This document shows positions 41,051 to 43,259 of a stretch of DNA of 64,000 nucleotides, piece after piece. The DNA comes from Sparassis latifolia (taxonomy: Eukaryota > Basidiomycota > Agaricomycetes > Polyporales > Sparassidaceae). How positions within the stretch are numbered: the first letter of the stretch is position 1; each line of letters begins with the position of its first letter. The stretch is from assembly GCA_018466975.1 (NCBI GenBank), contig CM031556.1, positions 558,001 through 622,000 of the forward strand, written 5' to 3'. Made by a program: the position numbers and the translations under genes. The notes under the pieces were generated by a model. That model made no database searches. It was not told where the DNA came from and worked only from the letters and a program-made list of their open reading frames with translations.

Positions 41051-41643
41051 TATATGTATTACTCATGTTCATGAACATTTCATTGGTTTTGTGCTGCCAC
41101 AAACATTGTGTACAGTCACTATCAAAAAAATATAAAGCTATAACAAGCTAGCAGCTGCTCCAGTGGCACTCAGGCCATACAACGTGGTGCCTATCTATAA
41201 GATAACATTGCAAAATACATATTATAAGATGCTACACAGTATGATAGAACTATAAATAGAAAAACAATGATTACTCCTTTACAAGTGTCCCTACTCTCAG
41301 ATAGCACTAATGCATATGCAAAATGTGTGATCAAGATCAAAGTAAAATGGCCCGGATCTGCAATGACAAAATGTCAGGCTCAGAAAATATTCAGCAAGAA
41401 CAGACTCCTACATTGTTGCTGATAATGATGCTAAAAGTCATAAATGCATGGTAATTGTGGAGTAATTTATTCAAAATGCAGGAGTTGATCAGAAAGGAAG
41501 GTAAAAAGCCATGAGTAAGAACAGCAATGAAAGCAGTAGAGCAACCATAAGAAGAATGTGGGAAGAAAATTGGTTATTTCAGCAAAAAGATTATTGGAAA
41601 CATGATCAGAATGAGAAATAGGTGCAGGTAAATCATTGCAGGA
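41051..41643. other. AT-rich, CpG-depleted intergenic block
   Basis: About 590 bp between convergent genes. It is visibly richer in A/T than its neighbours and I count only two CpG dinucleotides, against CpG-rich coding DNA on both sides. TG and CA are abundant, as after methylation-driven decay. There is no coding frame. It may be a decayed repeat, or long 3'UTRs of the two genes. Confidence 0.6.
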
Positions 41644-43259
41644 TTAGATCATTGCTGCTGTAGTAAGGCTTCGCCGAAGAATTATGCTGAAGTCATGGAG
41701 ATCAACGAGGGTGAACACTCGAAAGATAAGAAAAGGAAAGGAGGTGGGGGATATGGGAAAAGCAAAAGAGCCAAGACTTACTCTGAAGAAAATAGAGTTA
41801 GACTGAAATTCATGTTGTGACAGAATAGACTTGCCTTCAACTGCAGCCATTACTACCTTTAGCATTACGGTATCAGTAGCAGTGGTCACACTGGACAAAG
41901 TACATCATATCACTCAGTTATGTTCCAACTGCACGTGGACTCCAATTAGAGAAGAGAGAACGTACTGGATATAAATCTCGCGTTCCCTCGCATTAGCTTT
42001 CTGGGCCAACTTTGCGAACCGCTTCTTAAAATAGTCTCTTCCAGCGTGAGCATCACCAGGTTCGCCATCGAAATCCTGCGAGTCAATGGACAGACGTCAA
42101 CAATAAGGGCAATGAAGGCGGTGACACCTTACAGGGAAAAAGTTCTTGATATCCGAATGTTTGACTTTCTGTTCGAAGAGGTCGTTCTTGTTCAGGAAAA
42201 GAATCTAAGCAACCCTTCAGCACTATTTAAAAACTGCCGAAGGTGGTTGCAGCCGCACTATGGATGTTTGTTTAAACCACTGAGAGTGACATATGGAATC
42301 CCATATTGTCATTGCGTCTTGCATTTGATTCTGTCGTCCGAATCAGTCAGCTGGTCGAGATATGAATCATTGACTTACCGCATCTTTATCCTCGATGAGG
42401 CATTGGTCATAACCACTCAAGCTGACCAGAAACAAGATACTGGTGACATCCTGGAAACAGTGAATCCATTTACGTCGTTCACTCTTCTGGCCACCCACGT
42501 CTACCATCAGAAGTTCATGATCGTGTAGGTGGAAGACAGTTTCGGTGATGCCTATAGTCCGCACGCGAGCGCGGACAATGTCTTGTTCGCTCGGTACGTA
42601 AGTAGGCTCGAAAAGTCGACCCAGGTCCGAGAAATAATACAGCAGACTGTGGGAGTAAGATGATATATCGTGTGCAGAACAAAGAGTGCCACTCACTTGT
42701 CCGGAATAGCGGCCTCATTGCCTCTGTCCCATGCCTTCTGTACACTCGGATCCTCCCACAATCTCTTCAGTGGCTCGTAGTAAGCCGGTGGGAATGGCTC
42801 CCCGTCTCTGAGATCCGCTGCGTCGTCCACCAGAGACAGATATGACCTGTTCTCTTCGGAGACCTCAAGACCCATATCTTCCATTGAGTCGAGCAGGTAC
42901 TTGATGCCCTGTGTAAGGTTGTTAAACACAAGTTGCCGGAAAGATTCGACCTCCTGCGTGGAGAATGGGACGCGATGGATTAGTCGCATCTGCTTCAGAA
43001 CCGTCGACTTCCCTGAGTCGCCAGAGCCAAGCAAGAGGACCTACATGGGTAGCTTCGCATCACACGTACAGACACATCAGACGAGGGACATACCTTGACC
43101 TGCTTGGCCATCTTTGCCTTGGCCTTGAGGGAACGTTAGTAGATTTCCATACGCGGACGGAGAGAAACCTACCTCCTTCAGGCTCTTCTCTGCCTGCCTA
43201 TGTAGCCTCTTCTCCTCATCGCTAACCTCTACGGACTCCGAAGACAGACAGGCCCCCAT
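41644..43259 (-). CDS. gpa: heterotrimeric G-protein alpha subunit
   Basis: Receptor-coupled GTPase. Start at 43259: [20 protein letters not shown], with Gly2 and Cys4 placed for myristoylation and palmitoylation. G1 is [19 protein letters not shown] (the GSGDSGKS variant seen in fungal subfamilies). Then [10 protein letters not shown] (switch I), [18 protein letters not shown] (switch II), [12 protein letters not shown] (NKxD), and [18 protein letters not shown] (TCAT-like). The extreme C-terminus is recovered only by a 1-nt exon: [17 protein letters not shown], stop at 41644-41646. An Asp followed by IIL is the usual C-terminal helix. The preceding junction reads IYI-H-VTTATDT. The C-terminus ends AMI with no Cys four residues from the end, so there is no pertussis-toxin-type site. 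Confidence 0.93.
41782..41782 (-). other. gpa: 1-nt micro-exon (A) in the G-alpha gene
   Basis: Upstream exon ends GTT GAA G at 41835. A GC-AG intron (41834-41783, 52 nt) runs GCAAGT...TTCTTCAG. Then comes a single A, then a GT-AG intron (41781-41687, 95 nt) from GTAAGT to CTTCAG. The last exon starts C ATA ATT CTT. The codon G|A|C gives Asp in VEDIIL. I found no other splice choice giving both the frame and the Asp. Confidence 0.65.

Follow-up and report, generated by a model that had tools for sequence, protein, structure and literature searches.

Known single-nucleotide exons

In Arabidopsis and other land plants the APC11 gene carries an exon of one nucleotide (PMC4674806, PMC8831610). 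In the accounts given there, it resembles the G-alpha gene of Sparassis latifolia analysed here in that one A stands between an AG and a GT, is essential for the reading frame, is conserved in orthologues and is absent from annotations; the sequential removal of the two introns by intron definition has also been proposed for it (PMC4674806). In contrast to our case, APC11 is a plant gene, its exon was demonstrated with cDNA, mutants and GFP fusions and is constitutive in Arabidopsis, and its upstream intron has 300-odd nt compared to 52 nt of a GC-AG intron in the Sparassis gene. VPS55 of plants also contains a 1-nt exon (PMC8831610), which as described there is conserved (in land plants), followed by a GTRAGT donor directly after the single base and again absent from annotations. 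However, in Selaginella and non-vascular plants VPS55 transcripts with and without the exon give two proteins, and both the gene and the kingdom differ from ours.

The 1-nt exon of CYP621A in Fusarium is presented by its authors as the first for a fungal gene (PMC12940212). According to the parts of that paper that deal with the exon, it shares several features with ours: it is fungal, it supplies the second base of a codon within a conserved motif, the phase passes from 1 to 2, the deposited models are wrong with the exception of one transcript, and the gap between the flanking exons is of double length (139 nt compared to 148 nt here). It differs in belonging to an ascomycete P450, in being a G, in its 20 orthologues within Fusarium and in being supported by reads in two species. 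The Sparassis case, on the other hand, concerns a basidiomycete G-alpha gene, the base is A, the upstream intron is GC-AG, several orders and two tail types are involved, and the exon is predicted from sequence. A 1-nt exon has also been reported from placozoan mitochondria (PMC5436844). An earlier note on this DNA had remarked on the rarity of such exons and mentioned an Arabidopsis case; that case is APC11, and the fuller list adds the plant VPS55 and the Fusarium CYP621A. Among the open-licence PMC papers listed we found no 1-nt exon in a G-alpha gene or in a basidiomycete. If our reading is true, this would be, by that literature, the first such exon reported for a basidiomycete as well as for a G-protein gene, and several fungal orders would share it.

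The C-terminal tail is the part by which a G-alpha subunit recognises its receptor. In animals, alternative 3' exons of the G-alpha-o gene give two C-terminal sequences from one gene; there the exchanged part is larger and is not known to involve a 1-nt exon, whereas the fungal case is deduced from DNA and protein sequences. Concerning mushroom G-alpha isoforms and G-alpha-o isoforms, we found nothing on point among the open-licence papers listed. Compared with these systems, the Sparassis exon is unusual in its spread, in its GC-AG neighbour and in a likely tie to alternative tails.

The G-alpha gene and its junction at position 41782

The window, i.e. the whole stretch of 64,000 nucleotides that was analysed, comes from a genome of 22 contigs and 41.4 Mb. 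By published accounts S. latifolia stands very close to S. crispa (PMC6207663). The G-alpha gene lies on the reverse strand (41644..43259), as do all the features given below, and under the 1-nt exon model it has 10 exons and encodes 360 aa. Its translation matches PF00503 with 395.5 bits and a Gt/Gi1 chimera (chain 6oya_A) with 304.9 bits, and it contains the nucleotide-binding motifs of G-alpha subunits. Among the matches listed, the best is the S. crispa protein P0001 (100% identity over 96% of the query). The first seven introns measure 48-75 nt each. Intron 5 (42205-42258) has an unusual donor, ATA/GTGCGG, and neither it nor intron 3 contains a YTRAY branch motif; joining across intron 5 gives an 11-residue stretch that matches other G-alpha proteins.

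Exon 8 (41835..41890) terminates with GTT GAA G, in phase 1, and is separated from exon 10 by 148 nt, which equals two introns and one base. Intron 8 (41783..41834; 52 nt) is of the GC-AG type, reads AAG/GCAAGT..TTCTTCAG and contains a branch-like CTAAC motif, the A of which lies 15 nt from the 3' end. Exon 9 is a single A (41782..41782), found in the context TTCTTCAG/A/GTAAGT with just this one base between the AG acceptor and the GT donor. Intron 9 (41687..41781; 95 nt, GT-AG) begins with the donor GTAAGT, ends with GACTTCAG and has a branch-like TTGAT, its A likewise 15 nt from the 3' end. Exon 10 (41644..41686), the proximal last exon, encodes a tail of type A and reads C ATA ATT CTT CGG ..TAA. 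The intron phases across the junction are 1, then 2. The sequence thus matches the layout of exon 8, A and exon 10 described in the earlier note, and the codon assembled from G, A and C, of which the A is the middle base, is GAC, the Asp of helix alpha-5, with the tail following in frame. Also as claimed before, leaving out the A when exons 8 and 10 are joined yields a stop (GAA GCA TAA).

The gap contains two sites of the form AG-N-GT, namely AGAGT (the one used here) and AGTGT. The latter would place Val instead of Asp, use a donor GTTCAC and shorten the last intron to a mere 30 nt. By the rates on both strands of the window, the site itself included, 0.12 occurrences of AGAGT and 0.0035 of AGAGTAAG are expected per 148 nt. 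The 1-nt exon reading was the sole one we found that has both the Asp and the correct length of helix alpha-5; the spliced junction that it predicts is GTTGAAGACATAATTC (also given as GAAGACATAATT and GTTGAAGACATAATTCTTCGG).

A sequencing error in this interval, which had been named beforehand as a possible refutation, is unlikely, because the tail of P0001, a protein from a contig of another size (4,666,114 bases compared to 4,516,377 for the contig of the window), is exactly what this interval encodes if intron 8 is retained and intron 9 is spliced out at identical borders. This agreement supports the DNA as far as the two assemblies rest on independent reads.

That exon 9 is used in Sparassis itself, in which order the introns leave and that they are recognised by intron definition, we infer. 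Intron 8 (GC-AG) and intron 9 (GT-AG) would each be recognised across the intron, which fits since both are short and self-contained. They would leave one at a time, because splice sites with a single base between them can hardly be bound simultaneously, and either order would spare the sites of the other intron. As for the quality of the sites, the branch motif looks better in intron 8, and the GTAAGT donor belongs to intron 9. The spliced product would restore the Asp codon G/A/C in helix alpha-5, together with the tail. The earlier note had argued for intron definition or stepwise splicing, and its reasoning is sound. The junction would also offer a small natural test of how the spliceosome handles splice sites one base apart.

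Orthologues and competing products

We collected relatives by three protein searches, taking the best 120 of 3457, of 5581 and of 1492 matches (90% identity clusters), which pooled to 157 proteins; because of the best 120 per search, all counts below refer to the nearest relatives. A set of 59 proteins had no NCBI record and came from contigs of 1.2-3.2 kb (sources jgi, lgn, ena). We took them as products of spliced RNA, as their contig size and open reading frames suggest, because they run unbroken over 342-362 residues, whereas nine introns interrupt the Sparassis gene. The annotated set comprised 98 proteins from NCBI or nr, from which P0144 was set aside as it departs before the site, leaving 97 readable ones.

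In all 59 transcript-like orthologues listed, Asp follows ..VE and the tail has 12-14 residues (the nearest among those listed, P0002, is 87% identical). Not one of the 97 annotated orthologues that were listed and readable shows this combination: each of them either lacks this end, carries a changed one or is one residue out at the Asp. The sole annotated model with Asp, P0109, continues into an unrelated tail. Thirty-four of the 97 stop at AVEE, the end expected if intron 8 is removed and the A with the donor following it is taken for coding sequence (G AG TAA or G AG TGA); among these 34, P0059 comes with no contig and could be a cDNA, perhaps not a genome model. The species with the VEE end span Polyporales, Agaricales, Russulales and Corticiales (checked with a single example per order). 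Gly follows ..VE in 53 of the 97 (three of them stop there), as expected when reading continues into a GT or GC donor of intron 8, Val in five and Ala in four. Fomitopsis and Laetiporus are among the genera with Gly in their models. In five annotated models that continue into the last exon (P0063, P0068, P0073, P0097 and P0106) a Ser, AG/C, stands right before IVLR or IILR, and six of the 97 tails, that of P0001 included, start with GK. Eleven models show Gly in place of Asp at normal tail length (P0012, P0014, P0016, P0033, P0040, P0077, P0087, P0098, P0118, P0130 and P0149); there could be a real Gly codon at this place, or the base could have been misplaced in modelling. The footprint of the A plus donor accounts neither for these 11 nor for the models that stop at VEG (P0091, P0115 and P0119).

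Judged by these protein ends, the A and the GT after it may be conserved in the orthologues. Asp and tail in 59 of 59 transcript-like proteins, compared to none of the 97 annotated models and an AVEE stop in 34 of them, therefore suggest that the 1-nt exon probably dates far back in Agaricomycetes and has escaped annotation, with none of the 97 models listed capturing it. Anyone cloning or modelling the G-alpha subunit from such records would obtain a faulty end. Altogether we consider it very likely that position 41782, the single A, constitutes a constitutive exon of its own, spliced sequentially by intron definition and inherited from an ancestor common to several orders of Agaricomycetes.

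We then weighed the products that other ways of splicing would give. They were scored with a profile of 31 orthologues of the same tail type, which is not a neutral judge because all its members carry the Asp: the 1-nt product reached 737.7 bits, the Val variant 733.4, the product of the GTCTAT donor 729.7, the product of a candidate distal exon (see below) 726.3, the public model P0001 716.4, the AVEE-stop product 715.8, the product of skipping 715.4 and the body alone 714.8 bits. The Pfam scores (395.5, 392.2, 391.6 and 391.4 bits) separate the competing products poorly because PF00503 ends near the Asp. The GTCTAT donor belongs to the in-frame alternative that the earlier note overlooked when it listed only a stop or a lost frame: one intron from GGCAA/GTCTAT to CTTCAG/C, which does not need a 1-nt exon and would give AVEGNIILRRSL (AVEGNIIL), one residue longer and with Gly-Asn for Asp (predicted junction GTTGAAGGCAACATAATTC, GAAGGCAACATAATT). 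The annotated P0027 and P0030 have a tail of this kind, GNIVLRRNLEVAALI, but none of the 59 transcript-like orthologues listed does, GTCTAT is far from GTRAGT, and the product scores below the 1-nt product both on the profile and against the best solved animal G-alpha (298.3 compared to 304.9 bits). Aligned to the animal protein, it opens a gap in the helix, whereas the Asp of the 1-nt product aligns without a gap (in the three alignments shown). We regard the single intron as very improbable. Retention of intron 8 with splicing of intron 9 is less probable still. Its 381-aa product is the public model, i.e. the deposited S. crispa protein P0001, and the pipeline behind that protein is described as using RNA-seq hints (PMC6207663); however, it replaces the alpha-5 tail, its score lies barely over that of the body alone, the rest of the P0001 tail has by eye no likeness in the other GK tails or in the 59 transcript-like tails, and intron 8 possesses both the donor AAG/GCAAGT and the CTAAC motif.

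The gene might also end early by design, through skipping, AVEA-stop or AVEE-stop, so that the tail is never made. An AVEE end is indeed present in the 34 annotated orthologues mentioned, including P0059 with its lack of a contig, but early ends are the outcome of a program unable to place a 1-nt exon, exon 10 still codes for a conserved tail, and all 59 transcript-like orthologues listed possess a tail; we give this reading hardly any weight. The 347-aa annotated orthologues, considered as AVEA products of skipping, actually end in AVEE. The same negligible weight falls to a stwintron or zero-length recursive site, i.e. one composite intron of which nothing is kept. The adjoining AG, one base and GT resemble a recursive site, yet the Asp requires the A. 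In a stwintron or at a recursive site no middle base enters the mRNA, and here the frame stops at once without it.

Two tail types and a candidate distal last exon

The tails of the first 57 transcript-like proteins fall into two patterns, ..LRxNLxxAALI and ..I(I/V)SxNIRxxML: 31 are like DIVLRSNLETAALI (type A) and 26 like DTIISKNIREVML (type B). Two later transcript-like proteins, P0155 (DIIMRRNLRSVDSI) and P0157 (DTIVNKSIRNIML), represent one of each kind by eye. We built a tree of the bodies, with the tail removed, from 55 sorted transcript-like proteins, the 21 of the 97 annotated ones with a recognisable tail, two unsorted ones (P0086 and P0095, both B-like by eye) and Sparassis. On this tree, made by a quick method and with 35 of 76 branches weak, the 45 A and 31 B rows require 19 tail changes, of which well-supported branches force nine. 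When the labels were shuffled 500 times, the average was 24.4 changes, and counts as low as the observed one came up 3 (A) or 8 (B) times. Thus, the tail types cluster above chance yet are far from forming two clades. Moreover, P0127 (transcript-like, tail B) and P0132 (annotated, from Suillus fuscotomentosus, Boletales, tail A) are identical in 345 of 348 body residues.

Because the tails interleave on the body tree and because of these nearly identical bodies, alternative last exons account best for the two types, and the 1-nt exon may feed them. Near-identical paralogues are a less likely but conceivable source of the two tails; Armillaria solidipes does have two copies of this class, one per tail (P0087 and P0130). 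These two annotated copies are divergent, with 319 of 347 body residues the same. On balance we lean towards the view that the single A has been kept as an exon since the ancestor of several Agaricomycete orders as the joint for two alternative last exons, so that one gene provides two tails that contact receptors. If this is true, the split of the codon, G/A/C, gives both tails an identical, conserved Asp at their start. Confirmation of the second tail would mean that a single gene could couple to two receptor sets.

In Sparassis, a doubtful candidate for a distal last exon with a type-B-like start, IIISNNVGVCSC, lies at 41391..41430 (reverse strand), 213 nt past the stop codon, and reads AG/C ATC ATT ATC AGC AAC AAT GTA .. 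TGA (41430-41391). Placed after the Asp, IIISNNVGVCSC is as long as tail B and shares its ISNN core but differs from it at the end; the predicted junction with the upstream exon is GTTGAAGACATCATTATCAGC. The motif is a single site on the two strands of the window and was met in 1 of 5000 resampled 1-kb stretches, as a motif chosen after the site had been seen. A 12-residue tail profile was not significant on the distal exon (142 of 2000). With a profile of the 26 orthologues of the other tail type the distal-exon product was the best (715.7 bits, compared to 711.4 for the 1-nt product with the proximal exon and 702.4 for the body), while with a profile of all 57 the proximal product led (728.6 compared to 725.2 for the distal one). 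In Sparassis the candidate distal exon may have decayed.

Finally, we looked at the other G-alpha-like loci of the same genome, which number 13, or 12 after subtraction of the Arf-like L021. In the nine of the 12 that were readable (L009-L013 and L017-L020; L014, L015 and L016 were left out) we found no split Asp or Glu codon: the codon stood whole in an open frame, as judged from the open frames themselves. Several of these dozen loci (L009-L020) have divergent C-termini, for example VRDSIFRDYLKSAALV.
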